64,000 bases of DNA. It comes from Archangium lipolyticum. GTDB lineage: Bacteria > Myxococcota > Myxococcia > Myxococcales > Myxococcaceae. Of the stretch, positions 23,743 through 63,275 are shown piece by piece (within the stretch, counting starts at the first letter, position 1; each line of letters opens with the position of its first letter). Where the stretch lies: positions 186,001-250,000 of the forward strand of contig NZ_JANKBZ010000014.1 of the NCBI RefSeq assembly GCF_024623785.1, read 5' to 3'. Both the position numbers and the translations under genes were made by a program. The notes below the pieces were generated by a model. It was not told the origin of the DNA, did no database searches, and was given only the letters and a program-made list of their open reading frames with translations.

Positions 23743-24762
23743 TCAGTAGATCAGGCCGGTCTTGACGGAGCACTCCTTGCACTCATTGCACGCTTCCGGC
23801 TGCCATACACCCAATCCCCCCGTCACCGGCAATCGGCAGACGAGCAATCCCTCCGCCACATCGGATTTGTCCGGGTTGCACTGGCGACGGTCCTTCTGCG
23901 AGGGAAGGCAGGGGTCGCCCTTCCGGGCCGCCATGCAATTGATGGCCGAGCCAGCGACGGAGCAGGCATTGCATACCATCGTCGCCCAGAGCCGCTCCCT
24001 GCACACGAGCATCTGGTTGAGGTGGATGGGGTCACACTGGGCTTTTCCCTCGGAGGCGCATGCGTCACCAGCCCGGGCCGGGCCGCACTCGACCGAGCCA
24101 TTTCTCACCGCACAGGAGTTGCACACCTGGGCCATCCACTTCCCGCTGTTGCACACCAGCTTGCGGTCACTGTCGGCGGTGTCACACTGCGCCCGGGCCC
24201 CGGAACTACACGGGTCACCCGCGCGAGGTGCGCCACACGCCACGGTCTCGGCTCCCGTGGGGGTGCAGGCGCTGCACGGTTTCGTCGTCCAGAAGCCGCT
24301 GCGACACACCATCATCCTGTCGCCCGCGGGCACCATGCACTGCTCCCGGCCCTCGGCGGTGCACGGATCGCCCACCCGGGCGCTCTCGCATGTCAGCGCG
24401 CCATTGGCCTCCGCCGAACAGGTGTTGCAGACCTGTTCGGTCCAGACACTGTTCCTGCACACGAGCGCCTTGTCGGGTTGTGATGCATCACACTGCCCCT
24501 GTCCTTCCAGGAGGCGCGGGCAGGCATCTCCGGCCCGCGCCCGCGTGAGATCACAACTGGCCGTGTCTTCCTGCTCGGTGCATCCACTCGGGCCCGAACA
24601 GGAATAGGTCCGATAGGTCCCCCCCTCACAGAAGACAGCCTCTGTCGCGCTGATGCAGCGCGCCCTGTTCTCCTTGCCACAAGGGTCACCCGGGATCGGT
24701 GTGAAACAGGATGCCGATGCCAGGATGAGACCCAAGGCGGCGATCGCCCTTGGCTTCCACAT
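23743..24762 (-). CDS. Cys-rich repeat lipoprotein
   Basis: From the ATG at 24762 the product has about 339 residues: MWKPRAIAALGLILASASC is a lipoprotein signal. The mature chain consists of about six repeats of some 50 residues with the pattern A-R-x-GDxC, QCD, LVCR/N, W, CNxC and a closing C, for example ARAGDACASEGKAQC and MLVCRERLWATMVCNACS. Six to seven Cys per repeat imply a disulfide-stapled rod on the outside of the cell. Myxobacteria encode many such Cys-rich lipoproteins with no assigned function. The start at 24786 would add eight residues ahead of the signal and is less likely. Confidence 0.75.
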   Translation of the reverse strand: MWKPRAIAALGLILASASCFTPIPGDPCGKENRARCISATEAVFCEGGTYRTYSCSGPSGCTEQEDTASCDLTRARAGDACPRLLEGQGQCDASQPDKALVCRNSVWTEQVCNTCSAEANGALTCESARVGDPCTAEGREQCMVPAGDRMMVCRSGFWTTKPCSACTPTGAETVACGAPRAGDPCSSGARAQCDTADSDRKLVCNSGKWMAQVCNSCAVRNGSVECGPARAGDACASEGKAQCDPIHLNQMLVCRERLWATMVCNACSVAGSAINCMAARKGDPCLPSQKDRRQCNPDKSDVAEGLLVCRLPVTGGLGVWQPEACNECKECSVKTGLIY

Positions 24763-24833
24763 GATGTGCTCCCCCTCCCCAACCACCTACCCACCATCCC
24801 AGCGTGAAGATATGGAGCGCGAGAGCGTTGAAA

Positions 24834-26852: not shown

Positions 26853-26887
26853 TACCCTCACCCCGACCCTCTCCCGGCGGGAGAGGG
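26853..26887. repeat. REP-like palindromic repeat, copy 1
   Basis: The unit TACCCTCACCCC plus a CCCTCTCCC / GGGAGAGGG palindrome (26867-26875 with 26879-26887, 3-nt loop) recurs four times in this window. Here it forms the last codons of the SUKH immunity gene on the minus strand, which explains the tail [10 protein letters not shown]. Confidence 0.85.
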
Positions 26888-27361
26888 AGGGGTGCCCCGA
26901 CTGATATCTCCATCCATCTCGGTCTCTCGCGCGACCCGAGCGGCCAGCCACTCGATGAAGTTGGACGCCACTTGTACGGGTTCCTGCTGCGCTCCTGCTG
27001 CATGATCCCAGAACACGACAGGGGGCTCCCCCTCGACCCTCGAGTCAAGGCAGTAGAGGTTGCCTCCCCCGTCGTTCATGAGCGGGATGAGATGTGCGGA
27101 GAGCGAGGGACTCATGTCCGCCCGCTCACTCCGGGTCATCTCGGTAAGATTCAGGTACGGCGGCACATCCCCACCGAGCCCGAAGAGTTCGATAGATCCA
27201 ACTCCTCCCCAACCAAAGCGCCGCAAGAAGAGTCGATAGCCACCTGCCAGGGTTACGCCGAGTTGAACGTTGGCGGCGTGGATCTCCGTCTCGCACGCCC
27301 CCTGGCCTAGACTCTTCGATGGATTCCTCTCCAGCATCTCCGCGAGTTCGTCAAAGGTCAT
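26858..27361 (-). CDS. SMI1/KNR4 (SUKH) family immunity protein
   Basis: The 167-residue protein has the SUKH core: [20 protein letters not shown] is the signature helix and turn, followed by [29 protein letters not shown] and [11 protein letters not shown], which match the Asn/Asp-Gly-G-x-x-x-x-D and V-x-x-W/H pattern of the family. SUKH proteins neutralise nuclease toxins in contact-dependent and polymorphic toxin systems. Its ATG overlaps the toxin stop codon (ATGA), so it is translationally coupled to the HNH lipoprotein upstream. The last ~10 residues are encoded by a REP-like repeat, so the native C-terminus may have been replaced. Confidence 0.88.
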
Positions 27362-28749
27362 GGAAGATTCGGATGGTTCAGCTTGTAGCTGAGCCCCAGA
27401 CGGTGCTCAGTTCGCGTCAAAGGTACGAGGTTCTCGAAGGCATTGGATCCCCCCTCCGCGAGTGGCACCTTGTGATGCAGTTCCATCGGAAAACCGTCAC
27501 TCCCAATGGGAGGCTTGCCTTGTTTCATCCTAGCGACGTTCTCGGGTGAGTACACACCAGGACGAGCCTCGGCCTCGTGCTTCCAGAACTTCGATTTTAC
27601 AGCCTCGAACTCTTTACGAAGTTTCTCAAGCTCATCCCCTGATACGCGTTTTCCGCCACCGCCGCCCCCCGTGCCAGTCTGGTAGAGGATGATGGCCGCA
27701 CCCGGTCCGCTGCCCAGCACCTCGGCTACGTTGCCCACTGGTACCACGACGCGCTCCACAGCCAGTGCACCCTCCGCCGACAGGGACAACACCGGCACGG
27801 TAGCCTCCGCCCCCATCAGCGCCCTTGTCAGCGTGCGCGTGGTGCTCCCGGCGGCGCCCCAGGTAACAATCAGACTGGTAGTCAGTCTGGAGAGGGCCTT
27901 CACCTGCTCGCCGCGCGTCATGTATCTGAATTGCTCAAGAAACTCAGGTGAGGAGGCAATGAGGGCCGCCATCCCCGCTGGCAGGTGTCGCAGCTCGACG
28001 AGGCTCTCCACCGGCCGCGTCAGCAACTGGCCCATGGCGTGGTACAGCTCGACATAGGCGTCTTCCGCCCCATCCAGCGTGCGGCTGATGGTGTCCGCAT
28101 CGTCATACACCTCGGCCAGCACGGGCCCATCCATCATGGGCCGCAGTCGTGCGTCCGTATGCCGGAAAACCCACCCGTTGCCGGTATAGAAGCGGCCCAG
28201 CGCGAAAGGACCGGCCCGGAAGGCGTCATCCCTCCATTCCACTGGCCCCACCTTCTGCTGCGTACGTCCGTTGCGTGTCCAGGCGAGATAGCCGTCCGGC
28301 CGCAGCACGGCCACCGTGTTGAAGCGCTCCACACGGCGCAGCAACTCCTCGCGGGAGACTGCCTCTCCTTCCAGCACCTCGCGCAGAAGATGGCTCGCGG
28401 CCATGCGCGGCGGAAACGAGGCCAGTGTCACGGGCTTCCGCAGCAGTACGGCGAGCATCCGGGCCGCCGCTCGCGGCGTAAGGGGAGCGACTCTCGGGGG
28501 CAGCTCGTTGAAATCGTCCAGACCCGCCAGCGTCAGCAACTCCTCGAAAGAGTCCACCGTCACGGCGCCGCTGGTCACCGAGCGCACGGCTATTTCAGCC
28601 TGGCGCACCAGCGCCAGTTGCGTGCCAGGGTCGCGCTCGCTCCGGCTGTAACCCAGAAGCACACCATGACCGGGCAGTGAAGCCGTAGTGGCACAGCCGG
28701 TGGCCAACACAGCGACACACAGCAGCAGGAACAGGGGCATGGGCGTCAT
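27358..28749 (-). CDS. lipoprotein polymorphic toxin with C-terminal HNH nuclease
   Basis: This 463-residue protein begins MTPMPLFLLLCVAVLATGC, a signal peptidase II lipobox. A ~350-residue body of unknown fold leads to a Gly-rich linker (GTGGGGGGK, near residue 365) and then a compact nuclease domain with MELHHKVPLAEGG (His425, His426), FENLVPL (Asn440) and RTEHRLG (His449), the LHH/WHH-type HNH fold. The Gly hinge before a C-terminal nuclease and the coupled SUKH gene are the hallmarks of a polymorphic toxin. In Myxococcus xanthus the SitA lipoprotein toxins pass between cells by TraAB outer-membrane exchange; the lipoprotein signal makes the same route plausible here. Confidence 0.85.
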   Translation of the reverse strand: MTPMPLFLLLCVAVLATGCATTASLPGHGVLLGYSRSERDPGTQLALVRQAEIAVRSVTSGAVTVDSFEELLTLAGLDDFNELPPRVAPLTPRAAARMLAVLLRKPVTLASFPPRMAASHLLREVLEGEAVSREELLRRVERFNTVAVLRPDGYLAWTRNGRTQQKVGPVEWRDDAFRAGPFALGRFYTGNGWVFRHTDARLRPMMDGPVLAEVYDDADTISRTLDGAEDAYVELYHAMGQLLTRPVESLVELRHLPAGMAALIASSPEFLEQFRYMTRGEQVKALSRLTTSLIVTWGAAGSTTRTLTRALMGAEATVPVLSLSAEGALAVERVVVPVGNVAEVLGSGPGAAIILYQTGTGGGGGGKRVSGDELEKLRKEFEAVKSKFWKHEAEARPGVYSPENVARMKQGKPPIGSDGFPMELHHKVPLAEGGSNAFENLVPLTRTEHRLGLSYKLNHPNLP

Positions 28750-28797
28750 GAGAACATCAACCCGGATACACCGACATCCGCCCGCCGGGCCGTCCGC

Positions 28798-58747: not shown

Positions 58748-59995
58748 CTACGCCACGGGCATCCTTCTGAGACGCGACAGGTGCTCCTCGCCGCTCGCCA
58801 CGAAGCGCCGTGCCAGTTCGGCCTGGCCCTCCGCGCCATGCTCCAGCAGGTACGCCAACTCCGAAGGCAGCAGCGCCTTGGCGGTGACGAGCTTCACCTC
58901 CCCATACGGGGTGGAGAAGTGACTCGGCAGCGTGCGTGACGCCACGCCCAGCAGCACGGCCGCCCTACCCTCCTCGGTGACGAGAGACTTGGGCAGGCCC
59001 TTCCCCGACACCTCCATGGAAAAAAGGCCCGCCGTCACCCCCTCGCGTACATGCTCGTGCTCGGCGACTTCATCCGCCACACGGTCCAGCAGCATCAGGG
59101 GCCACCCCTTCGAGATGTCCTTCACGGCCGCGTCCACTTCCAGGGCGAGCTCCAGGCCAAAGCCCACGGAGGGCTCCAGGCGCTCGATGAACGGGTCCGA
59201 GAGCCCGTGCGTGACAAGCAGCGTACGTCCTGCCTCGCGACGGATGACGCGCCAGAGCTGCCGGTGGCCCGGCCATGAGCCGCTCATGGCGATGGGCATG
59301 AAGACCTCCTTGTCCAGCGACCCCAGGGTGCGCCAGGCCGTTTCACGAGCGGTGGCCGCCGTTTCCAGCAGCTCGCGGCTCTTCCGGTCCCGCGCTCGCT
59401 CCTCCGCATTGATGGTGCTCTGGCCGGTCACCTCTTGGAACTTCGTCCCCGTGGCCCCCATGCGCTCCAGTGCGTCCTTGATGGTCTCGGACACAACGAT
59501 GGCCAACTCCCAGCCCCAGGTGCGGAACACCCTGGCATTGCCCACTTTCGAGGGGTCGATGCGCATTCCGATGACGGACCGATACTGTCCGAGCTTTTCT
59601 GGTTGCCCATCCTCCAGTTTCCAGTAGCGCACCTCGTCGGAAGCCTCGTCGTCGATGCACTTCACGACGCGTGTGATGTTCAGGAGGACATAGGGTTCGG
59701 TCTGCCCGTCCACGTCCACCGGAATGAGCTGCACATCGTCGGGAGCCAGCTCGGAGAACACGGCTGCCACGCTGGCACGGACCACGGGGATGGGAGCACC
59801 AGCCAACAGGGAGAAGTCCAGCGACCTACCGGGGACGTAGAGGGGGATCCGAATTCTTCCTTCGACGTGAGCAGACTCGCCTCGTGCGAGCAGCCAGGTC
59901 CGGAGCGCCTGTCCCCGCTGATCCACGGGATCATCCAACTCCCAGCGGCCCGGGATATGGAGATCGTCCAACAGCCTGAAATACCGCTTCGCCAT
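58748..59995 (-). CDS. Imm11-SUFU fusion immunity protein
   Basis: Residues 1-~200 match the Imm11/DUF1629 family of myxobacterial immunity proteins: KRYFRLLDDLHIPGRWELDD, GRIRIPLYVPGRSLDFSLLA, ELAPDDVQLIPVDVDGQTEP and RVFRTWGWELAIVVSE. After a helical linker, residues ~225-415 resemble a suppressor-of-fused (SUFU) domain: LVTHGLSDPF, ELALEVDAAVKDI and LVTAKALLPSELAYLLEHGA. SUFU-type domains are themselves immunity modules for nuclease toxins. The gene follows the AHH toxin by 135 bases on the same strand, the normal toxin-then-immunity order. A two-domain immunity protein could guard against more than one toxin. Confidence 0.82.
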   Translation of the reverse strand: MAKRYFRLLDDLHIPGRWELDDPVDQRGQALRTWLLARGESAHVEGRIRIPLYVPGRSLDFSLLAGAPIPVVRASVAAVFSELAPDDVQLIPVDVDGQTEPYVLLNITRVVKCIDDEASDEVRYWKLEDGQPEKLGQYRSVIGMRIDPSKVGNARVFRTWGWELAIVVSETIKDALERMGATGTKFQEVTGQSTINAEERARDRKSRELLETAATARETAWRTLGSLDKEVFMPIAMSGSWPGHRQLWRVIRREAGRTLLVTHGLSDPFIERLEPSVGFGLELALEVDAAVKDISKGWPLMLLDRVADEVAEHEHVREGVTAGLFSMEVSGKGLPKSLVTEEGRAAVLLGVASRTLPSHFSTPYGEVKLVTAKALLPSELAYLLEHGAEGQAELARRFVASGEEHLSRLRRMPVA

Positions 59996-60130
59996 GAAGG
60001 GCTCCTAGAGCACCGACCGGTTTGATAGAAACCTCAATAATTCCAGCCGTTTGCAATGACATACACAGTGTCGGTATCGCGCCAAGTGACTGTTTTCCTT
60101 GAGGAAAGGTCCATCAAACCATTCGGCGTT
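59996..60130. other. gap between toxin and immunity genes
   Basis: This is a 135-base AT-richer spacer, longer than in the SUKH pair. It may hold a separate promoter, so immunity can be kept on when the toxin gene is silent. No clear hairpin was found. Confidence 0.35.
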
Positions 60131-61573
60131 CTAGGGTGCTGCCCCTTTGGTTAGCAGCCTGTTGAGCCTGCTGCCCTCAGTGAGAATCTCCTCCGCCAAC
60201 TTCTGGAGCGCCTGTCTCAACGCTCGCGCACACGCCTGTTTGTCGGGGCAGCTTTCCGTCGCCCTATACAACTCTTCATGGACGATTTGATGGTATTCCT
60301 CCGGATGTGGCCCCTTGTGGCCAACAACGGGGACCTTGTTGGCCGGGTCCTCCATCGACATGCCGGCCTTGTCGAAAATCTTCTTGAACCGCTGCGTCCA
60401 GGGACCGCCACGCAAGGTGGACTTCTCGTTTTCGATGGTGGCGATGTGGTGGACGTCCGGCTTCCTCTTCGAGGGAGCTGTACGTGCCGGAGCTCCCGCC
60501 GGAGCGCCCCTCGCGGCCATGCTCACGACATTGGCGGGCAGGACGACACTGAAGGTGCCCTCGGCCACGGCGACCTTCACCTTGTCCGCTTCCTGCACGG
60601 CCGTGAGCACGTCTCGGATGCCGGCATGGGACTCGAGCGCACCGGCCGCTTTCGCGAAGCCCGGCAGCTTCGGGGCCTTGGACACCAGCGCCGCCGTCTC
60701 ACCCACCGCCGCAGTGCCCAGCAGGAGGAGAATCCGCACGCTGTTGGGCCCGATGACCTTGCCGAAGCGGTCTCCCGCCTCGCGCAGCTCCGCGAACGTG
60801 CTGGCCTCCGCCGCCTCCTCCCACAACTGGAAGTAGGCCCGCACCAGGTCGAAGAGCTCCCAGCCCAGGTAGCCCCACATGAGCAAGGCCAGTGCAGCAG
60901 CGACGCCTTTAGAAACGGGCTCGGGTGCCGAAACCAAGGCGAGATATCCGATGATGGTGAGGCTCAGCGTCGTCCAGAGCTGAGTCGTGGAGAACATGCC
61001 GCGCAGCTCCGCGTCCCGGGACTCCAGCGCCGCGTTCACGGAGAGCGCCAGGGCGAGGTCGCGCTTGTCCTCGCCATCCAGGCCCGGCCCGTCCTTGAAC
61101 AACCCGAGGCAGTCGCCCGGCGTACCTTGCCGCTCGCAGAAGCTCCCGTAGGACCGCGCCAGGGGCGTGCGCCACTCCTCGCCCGTGAGCGGGACGGAGG
61201 CCAGCGCCAGCTTCCGGTGGAGGTAGAGCGGAAAGTGGGAGCCAGCCACCCGCAGCGGCATGTTCAGCACCAGGGTGGCGAGGGCTTCGTTGAGCTCGAA
61301 GTCGCTCACCTGCACCGCCCTGAATCGGGTGGGCAGGGAGAGTCGGACCAGCTCGTCCGCGGCCTCACCCGCCCCCGCCTCCTCCGTGGGAGGCCGGGCG
61401 TCCTCATGGAAACGGGGTATCGATGGCCGGTAGGACGACCCCACCAGCAGACCGCCCCGAGGAACACCCGTGGCGCACGCCGTCTGGAGGAAGAGGACGA
61501 TGAGAGCCCAAGCACCCAACCAGGGGCGCTGCCGCGTGCCTGCCGGGCGCCAACCAACAAGACGTGTGGACAC
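60131..61573 (-). CDS. lipoprotein toxin with C-terminal AHH nuclease (SitA-like)
   Basis: The 480-residue protein has a signal and lipobox (ALIVLFLQTAC). Residues ~45-345 form a body with two hydrophobic helices (LWTTLSLTIIGYLALVSAPE and GVAAALALLMWGYLGWELF) that could help membrane entry. The last ~107 residues are an AHH nuclease of the HNH/endonuclease VII group: DVHHIATIENE (His375, His376), DPANKVPVVGHKG (Asn412, His419), HPEEYHQIV (His423, His428). It closely resembles the myxobacterial SitA5-type toxins as I remember them. SitA lipoproteins move between siblings through TraAB outer-membrane exchange and kill those without the immunity gene. Confidence 0.85.
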   Translation of the reverse strand: MSTRLVGWRPAGTRQRPWLGAWALIVLFLQTACATGVPRGGLLVGSSYRPSIPRFHEDARPPTEEAGAGEAADELVRLSLPTRFRAVQVSDFELNEALATLVLNMPLRVAGSHFPLYLHRKLALASVPLTGEEWRTPLARSYGSFCERQGTPGDCLGLFKDGPGLDGEDKRDLALALSVNAALESRDAELRGMFSTTQLWTTLSLTIIGYLALVSAPEPVSKGVAAALALLMWGYLGWELFDLVRAYFQLWEEAAEASTFAELREAGDRFGKVIGPNSVRILLLLGTAAVGETAALVSKAPKLPGFAKAAGALESHAGIRDVLTAVQEADKVKVAVAEGTFSVVLPANVVSMAARGAPAGAPARTAPSKRKPDVHHIATIENEKSTLRGGPWTQRFKKIFDKAGMSMEDPANKVPVVGHKGPHPEEYHQIVHEELYRATESCPDKQACARALRQALQKLAEEILTEGSRLNRLLTKGAAP

Positions 61574-61808: not shown

Positions 61809-62192
61809 ATGGACGAGAAGCTGCGACAAGCTCTGGGGGACTCGGCCCGAGCTGCTCGCCTGCGGCTGGGTCTCACGCAGGCGGAGGTGGCCAAGAAGGT
61901 GCGCCTGAAGCCCGGCGTCTACGGCCGGGTCGAGCGAGGCGCGATGGTGCCCAGCGTGCCCACGCTGCGGCGCATTTGCGAGACCCTGGGCATCTCCTCG
62001 GATGCGCTCCTGTCTCTGGGTGCTCAAGCCCACCAGGCGACGGCACCCGCCCCTCCACCCGCGGCTGGTGAGCACCCGGAGCTCAGCCGCATCATCCACA
62101 TCTTGCAGGAGTGGCCGCCGGAGAGGTTGGCGCTCTTGCGCAAGCTGCTGGAGACGGCCGACCCCCACCTCTCGGACGTGAGCTTGCGGTGA
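61809..62192 (+). CDS. XRE-family transcriptional regulator
   Basis: The 127-residue protein has an N-terminal helix-turn-helix of the Cro/C1 type: LGDSARAARLRLGLTQAEVA, KKVRLKPGVYGRVERGAMVPS. A Pro-rich linker and a helical C-terminus (ERLALLRKLLETAD) follow. It is divergent from the toxin gene across 235 bases, so it may control the toxin. Closely similar short XRE proteins are frequent in myxobacterial mobile elements. Confidence 0.85.
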   Translation: MDEKLRQALGDSARAARLRLGLTQAEVAKKVRLKPGVYGRVERGAMVPSVPTLRRICETLGISSDALLSLGAQAHQATAPAPPPAAGEHPELSRIIHILQEWPPERLALLRKLLETADPHLSDVSLR

Positions 62193-62194
62193 TT

Positions 62195-62444
62195 CCTCCG
62201 GGGTGGGTGCGGACTCCTGTGGCCAGGTCACCGCCTCGCGCGCTTCGAGCCCCAGGGCGGTACTGGCGTCCACCCGCAGCACCATGCAGAGCTTGCGCAG
62301 GGTGAGGACGCTGGGCGTCAGGTTGCCCCGCTCCATGCGCCCATACACCTCGGTGGCCACGCCCACGCGGTCGGCCACGTCCGCCTGGGTCAGCTGGGTC
62401 TTGAGCCTGGCCTCTCGCAGAGCCGTACCCAGGTGGACGGTCAA
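62195..62444 (-). pseudogene. second XRE regulator remnant
   Basis: From a TTG at 62444 the minus strand encodes LGTALREARLKTQLTQADVA and then VGVATEVYGRMERGNLTPS, an intact XRE helix-turn-helix related to the one at 61809. Its natural C-terminus is gone: past 62195 the frame runs antisense into the convergent regulator gene. The head is fused to an IS21 piece. A truncated DNA-binding domain could still act, but it is best read as debris. Confidence 0.65.
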
Positions 62445-62461
62445 TTTCTTCTTCGTCAGCA

Positions 62462-62540
62462 GGCACGCCGTCTGGCGCAGTCGCGCGTTGCGCAGGCGCG
62501 AAGACAGCTTCTTGTTCTCCCGGTGCACCCACTCCGCATC
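62462..62540 (-). pseudogene. IS21 helper ATPase (istB) fragment
   Basis: The minus-strand frame reads DAEWVHRENKKLSSRLRNAR followed by LRQTACL, the N-terminal W-x-x-REN-x-x-L-x-R-L-x-x-A-x-LR segment of IstB. Only about 26 residues remain, joined to the istA piece upstream and the XRE scrap downstream. Confidence 0.65.
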
Positions 62541-63275
62541 CGCTGGGCGTCCACTCAGCGTGCGCGCGGTGGCTGGCCGGCATGTGCTCGGCCAGCGTGG
62601 TGAAGCGTCCGCGCTCCTCGCTGCGCACGTGGCTGGCCACGCGCCGGCCGCCCAGCAGCACTTCCACGCACGTCTGCGTGTAGCGCACCTCCATCTGCTG
62701 CCCCACCAGCCCGTACGGCACGCTGTAGCAGTGCCCCTCCAACTCCACGTGGTAGTCCACGTTGACGCGCGCCTTCTTCCAGTGCGCCAGCTCGTAGGGC
62801 TTGTCCGGCAGCGGTTTAAGGGCCGCCCTCTCCACCTCCTCGAAGAGTTGCCGGCGGCTCTTGCCCAGCTTGCGCATGGGTCGCGTGTTGAGTTTCTCCA
62901 GCAGCACCGCCACCGCCTCGCGCACCTCGCCAAGCGACGTGAAGCGCCGGTTGCGCAGCGCCGCCAGAATCCACCTCTCGGCCAGCAGCACTCCGTTCTC
63001 CACCTTCGCCTTATCCCGCGGTTTGCGCGGCCGCGCCGGCACCACCGCGAAGCCGTAGTGCCTGGCCATGTCCGCGTAGCTGGGGTTGATGTCCGGCTCG
63101 TACCGGTTGGCTCGCGTCACTGCCGCCTTCAGGTTGTCGGGCACCACCACCTGCGGCACTCCCGCGAAGTACGACAACGCCCTCTGGTTGCACCCCACCC
63201 ACGTGGCGGTGTCCTCGCCGAAGACGGGCTCCGCGTACGTGTAGTTGCTGGCCCCCAGCACCGCCAGGTACAGCT
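62541..63275 (-). pseudogene. IS21 transposase (istA) fragment
   Basis: This frame encodes the middle and C-terminal part of an IS21 IstA transposase: LGASNYTYAEPVFGEDTATW, VPQVVVPDNLKAAV and RKPRDKAKVENGVLLAERWI come from the DDE domain, including its final Asp and Glu regions, and SVPYGLVGQQMEVRYTQTCV from the C-terminal beta domain. The N-terminal HTH and first catalytic Asp are missing. The fragment stops 8 bases from the right att repeat, and its 3' end is fused to istB. The element cannot transpose on its own. Confidence 0.85.

Follow-up and report, generated by a model that had tools for sequence, protein, structure and literature searches.

The window analysed here is a 64,000-nucleotide stretch of DNA in which a lipoprotein nuclease gene is coupled to a putative immunity gene, while a second pair of the same general build lies elsewhere in the stretch. 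The locus raises the question of whether such a pair represents a toxin design of its own or belongs to a described system, and of how its body and its nuclease tip are each related to those of other toxins.

Anatomy of the gene pair and its nuclease tip

The toxin gene (27358–28749, reverse strand, as are all genes and protein segments of the window given below) encodes a probable SitA3-type lipoprotein of 463 amino acids, as judged from its open reading frame, its lipobox, its escort-domain paralogues and its LHH tip. The protein opens with a type II signal peptide (28693–28749) whose lipobox, LATGC, ends in the lipidated Cys19. A body of about 350 residues follows, delimited as an escort domain by alignments and own-genome matches (residues 20–366; 27652–28692), and leads through a glycine-rich stretch, GTGTGGGGGGK (27649–27678), into a C-terminal tip of 97 residues (27361–27651). 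The glycine-rich hinge (about residues 358–367) is a simple linker and marks the junction of body and tip, homologous tips beginning with VSGDEL just beyond it. Behind Cys19 stand Ala at +2 and Leu at +7. Given the published rule that lipoproteins with neither Lys at +2 nor Ala at +7 are sorted to the outer membrane (PMC5562445), outer-membrane sorting is predicted for this toxin.

The toxin gene overlaps the gene directly downstream by ATGA at 27358–27361, an arrangement shared by a homologous pair in genome G086 and by a paralogue of the present genome (L009). This second gene (26858–27361; 167 amino acids) matches SUKH_5 (PF14567) at 66.4 bits against a cut-off of 27, and it has a homologue beside the related tip of G086. 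We therefore regard it as the putative cognate immunity gene (sitI), a member of the SUKH superfamily. Reading frames, lipobox and Pfam matches agree with one another and bear out the earlier note, which had described a lipoprotein with a Gly-rich hinge and a C-terminal LHH/HNH nuclease, overlapping a SUKH gene by ATGA.

Domain analysis placed the tip in the Pfam LHH family (PF14411; 27.9 bits, cut-off 23.3). When the tip alone was searched with phmmer against PDB sequences, the best match was the colicin E7 DNase (E = 0.0087, tip residues 8–82), in an alignment that takes in the 'FW', 'RM..GK.P' and 'ELHH' elements together with the Asn and the His. The E-value is marginal, yet the match extends over the entire domain and was obtained independently of the Pfam hit. 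By sequence, then, the tip resembles the colicin E7 DNase domain in its HNH core and in the pattern xFW...RM..GK.P...ELHH...N...H. The HH...N...H active-site residues of colicin-type HNH DNases are present as H425/H426, N440 and H449. H425, H426 and N440 are invariant in the aligned homologous tips, and H449 is conserved with one alignment shift; the earlier note had named unconserved C-terminal His and Asn positions as evidence against its reading, and H426 and N440 stand in every aligned homologous tip. For the third metal ligand of colicin E7 the aligned tip offers no clear counterpart, H459 being a candidate, and model confidence in the tip was low (pLDDT below 50 over residues 425–459). 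The setting differs as well: colicin E7 is a soluble colicin neutralised by Im7, whereas here the domain is carried by a lipoprotein with SUKH immunity.

The tip is rare. Only 4 of 195 genomes of the phylum contain it at E <= 1e-5, and its remoter relatives include RHS and other HNH proteins encoded on plasmids. A SUKH-like gene adjoins two of these distant relatives, one annotated as YrhA and the other judged by eye. Phage records gave no match, and plasmid records matched the tip only or, with the L136 protein as query, a CdiA_C tip. A match of the toxin to IscB involved the HNH core only.

The body as a shared escort domain

To follow the body on its own, as the earlier note had proposed, we compared it with its own genome (12.6 Mb; the locus lies on contig C14), which yielded 19–20 matches ranging from 72% down to 33% identity and carrying different tips. 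One paralogue, L020, bears a Colicin-DNase/WHH tip with SUKH immunity. Tox-REase-5 with Imm52 stands behind the body in L011 and L015, where it was tested, and the others appear alike by eye and by clustering. L009 (C59:16000–21500) is a sitB-sitA-sitI operon whose novel tip and immunity protein match no Pfam or NCBIfam family; a tip homologous to it occurs in genome G003 (L028).

We then assembled bodies from this genome, its relatives and named genomes of Archangium, Myxococcus, Pyxidicoccus, Corallococcus, Hyalangium and Citreicoccus. The 114 non-identical full-length bodies, spread over the Myxococcaceae, carried tips that grouped into 15 clusters; about ten of these represent real, separate domains, and a few consist of truncated forms. 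Tox-REase-5 is the commonest tip behind the body, the LHH tip is the sole one of its kind, and even the nearest body (L027, 75% identical) bears an unrelated tip. At least ten unrelated tips are thus found on the same body. Because the body carries many tips across paralogues and species, the case of a housekeeping lipoprotein with a constant HNH domain, which the earlier note had raised against itself, is excluded.

That note had recognised no family for the body. This holds as far as curated families are concerned, since NCBIfam and Pfam contain none for it, but must be amended in that the body fits the SitA3-type escort domain. A weak match to Rng_hyd_C, below the cut-off and located at the conserved RPDGYL motif, was taken as chance. 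Residues 50–200 of the escort domain were modelled with confidence, and long helices and a strand pair follow; Foldseek of the toxin model against the PDB returned nothing (best E 0.57), so that no clue to function came from the escort fold.

With no curated model for the body, we turned to the published features of SitA3. The Sit system comprises six non-homologous escort families, SitB overlaps SitA by 11 bp in the published systems, and the tips of SitA3-Mx and SitA3-Mf1 are a CdiA tRNase (PF18451) and Tox-REase-5, respectively (PMC5562445, PMC8546572). Both of these modular tips, CdiA_C tRNase and Tox-REase-5, were found behind the present body. The CdiA_C tRNase tip occurs on it in M. xanthus AM003 (L057), where the assembly shows just part of the tip in frame, and in two M. 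xanthus-like genomes (L136 and L137). SitB-like genes overlap the toxin gene by 11 bp in L057, in L083 and in the own-genome paralogue L009. SitA3-Mf1 is also without sitB (PMC5562445), and an upstream SitB is not a defining feature of SitA3 because it is frequent rather than obligatory. No SitB stands beside the toxin gene at 27358–28749; the upstream 370-aa gene, considered as a candidate, proved unrelated to SitB by comparison.

The genome of the locus (G000) encodes TraA (NF033759, 1100 bits, over the cut-off), and an OmpA-type TraB-like gene adjoins traA. SitA toxins are described only from myxobacteria that have traAB. The toxin combines a lipobox, a shared escort domain, a C-terminal nuclease, a downstream immunity gene and a TraAB-bearing genome, the last examined in G000. 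It matches no NCBIfam SitA3 model, nor does it match the SitA5 escort model NF050093. Membership in the SitA3 family, whose reference is MXAN_1899, is the best assignment of the body and is made by published features.

Compared with SitA3/SitI3 of M. xanthus and M. fulvus (PMC5562445, PMC8546572), the locus shares the lipoprotein with an escort domain of about 350–375 aa and a polymorphic nuclease tip, the immunity gene directly downstream, the modularity of tips and the presence of TraAB. It differs in bearing an LHH/colicin-E7-like tip instead of a CdiA tRNase or Tox-REase-5, in its SUKH immunity and in having no adjacent SitB. SitA1/SitI1 is similar in joining an HNH-type DNase tip and SUKH immunity on a lipoprotein, but its tip is WHH rather than LHH. 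In a profile search the escort domain was likewise unrelated to that of the SitA1-like WHH lipoprotein L177, a SitA1 candidate and not a reference.

The collection also contains a second escort branch, formed by L011–L020 and loci of Archangium and Hyalangium. Its members are 33–40% identical to the present body, have longer N-terminal linkers, carry mostly Tox-REase-5 tips and are without SitB; they may constitute a separate sub-family. Four further own-genome loci (L021, L023, L024 and L025, including C14:265620) encode proteins of about 120–330 aa, most of them bearing a lipobox, which align with only part of the escort domain and carry no tip. On contig C73, L010 is a frameshifted escort-domain copy with a different tail that adjoins an integrase-like gene.

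Tip and immunity gene as an exchangeable cassette

The nearest relative of the tip (74% identical) is found in genome G086 (L162). The gene after it, again overlapping by ATGA, encodes a SUKH protein that shares 68% identity with the immunity protein studied here. In G086 the tip is carried by a SitA5 escort domain (247 bits), and this arrangement recurs in genome G084, there with its frame disrupted. DNA similarity between the window locus and the G086 locus covers the tip and immunity gene only (72%). These two have a GC content of 58.6%, within the lowest 0.2% of the window, versus 67% for the body. CdiA_C tips, too, are carried by SitA3-type as well as SitA5 bodies, with identities reaching 58%. 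As tip and immunity gene are shared with a locus whose SitA5 body is non-homologous, and as their GC content lies below that of the body, they look like one mobile cassette. On the evidence of LHH with SUKH and of the CdiA_C tips, tip and immunity gene probably move jointly between non-homologous escort domains of the SitA3 type and SitA5.

SitA5 is also represented in the window itself. The AHH toxin (58748–61573) is a SitA5-family lipoprotein (NCBIfam NF050093, 179 bits, cut-off 160), its immunity gene is Imm11/SUFU-like, and its tip likewise differs in GC content from its body (59.6% vs 69.4%); matches to SitA5 over the curated cut-off number 24 in the 12.6-Mb genome. Both this protein and L162 of G086 resemble the present toxin in architecture and presumed delivery, but SitA3-type and SitA5 escort domains show no homology (hhalign probability 0.5%). 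The earlier note's view of the window as holding two toxins on one lipoprotein chassis, with unrelated bodies and with different immunity folds (SUKH vs Imm11), is thereby upheld. Given a known SitA3-type body and a named SitA5 family for the AHH protein, however, the design is an established one and not new: the gene pair is part of the already described SitA/SitI kin-killing system. Beside the SitA5 pair, an ORF at 62092–63261 looks by eye like an IS21-type transposase.

Comparison with genome G003 by blastn revealed flanks 90–94% identical to those of the locus, with an alignment that stops at 26892 and restarts at 28764. The segment 26893–28763, and the gene pair with it, is missing at the syntenic site, which holds about 4 kb of other DNA. 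This break marks the pair as an accessory cassette with sharp edges. The comparison, with one related genome that has both flanks, is between species and not a strain survey, and to that extent it favours the strain-specificity that the earlier note had asked about. The downstream edge of the cassette (26857–26892) is a dispersed repeat with an inverted match in G003. Four copies of this CTCACCCCGACCCTCTCCC-like repeat, with at most 2 mismatches, occur in the window, at 26857 (26857–26875), 41451, 41519 and 51995. The copy at 26857 forms one edge of the SitAI cassette and lengthens the immunity ORF: the final ~20 residues of the protein as annotated run into the repeat and are missing in homologues of 147 aa. 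At 23743–24786 lies a gene for a cysteine-rich lipoprotein with repeated 'GDPC...C...C' units.

Proposed mode of action and competing explanations

We interpret the pair, with a probability of about 0.87, as a SitA3-family sitAI locus: a lipoprotein delivered by outer membrane exchange, with a tip that cuts DNA in the cytoplasm, kin protected by the SUKH protein and a cassette that recombines onto escort domains. This interpretation starts from the anatomy, body family, conserved active-site residues, linked immunity, TraAB genes and patchy distribution described above. For outer-membrane-exchange delivery, the entry route, DNase activity and neutralisation, we infer by analogy with published work on other SitA proteins. 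After export and lipidation, the lipoprotein would be sorted to the outer membrane. When compatible TraA receptors meet, TraAB-driven outer membrane exchange would carry the toxin into the outer membrane of the partner, whose envelope proteins the escort domain would exploit, bringing the C-terminus to the cytoplasm. There the colicin-E7-like HNH tip would cut the partner's DNA. The SUKH protein would stay untransferred and bind the tip, and kin would survive because they make this protein. The cassette of tip and immunity gene would recombine onto different escort domains.

The family assignment itself could be questioned, because the bodies form two clear sub-branches: the present one is 51–75% identical to its own clade and 33–40% identical to the Archangium/Hyalangium branch, SitB is associated with the former and not with the latter, and no curated model matches either. 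That the escort family is distinct from SitA3, with one or both branches meriting a new family number, nevertheless seems unlikely to us, as its own clade (A) holds both published SitA3 tips and, in M. xanthus, the 11-bp SitB overlap, and as published SitA3 escort domains are only 51.8% identical to each other (PMC8546572). Delivery might also differ from that of SitA3, since LHH/HNH tips and SUKH-like immunity occur on RHS and other chassis as well. The protein would then be a polymorphic toxin of similar chassis logic that uses another contact route, such as type VI secretion, its lipoprotein signal merely parking it in the envelope. The toxin, however, has no PAAR, VgrG or RHS element, its lipobox carries outer-membrane sorting residues, the lipoprotein architecture is family-wide, relatives are associated with SitB and the genome has TraAB, all of which make such a route improbable.

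Truncated and frameshifted relatives in the genome (L010, L021–L025) might further hint at decay, that is, at a functionless orphan locus in which chance had joined a housekeeping lipoprotein to an HNH remnant. An intact reading frame, conserved catalytic residues, a conserved translational overlap with the cognate immunity gene and the co-inheritance of tip and immunity gene behind another chassis argue against this, and we consider it very improbable.

Reading the pair as a SitA3-family sitAI locus places a previously unannotated gene pair, along with its genome-wide paralogues, in a known kin-discrimination system. Functional SitA3/SitA5 chimeras were made by Vassallo et al. (PMC8546572), and the occurrence of LHH with SUKH behind two unrelated bodies represents a natural counterpart of these laboratory constructs. 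As one nuclease and its antidote stand behind two delivery bodies, a single immunity protein can be tested directly against two entry routes. If the cassette does move between escort domains, a strain could gain immunity to the toxin of one SitA family through a locus of another, and a given nuclease could change its route of entry in nature.
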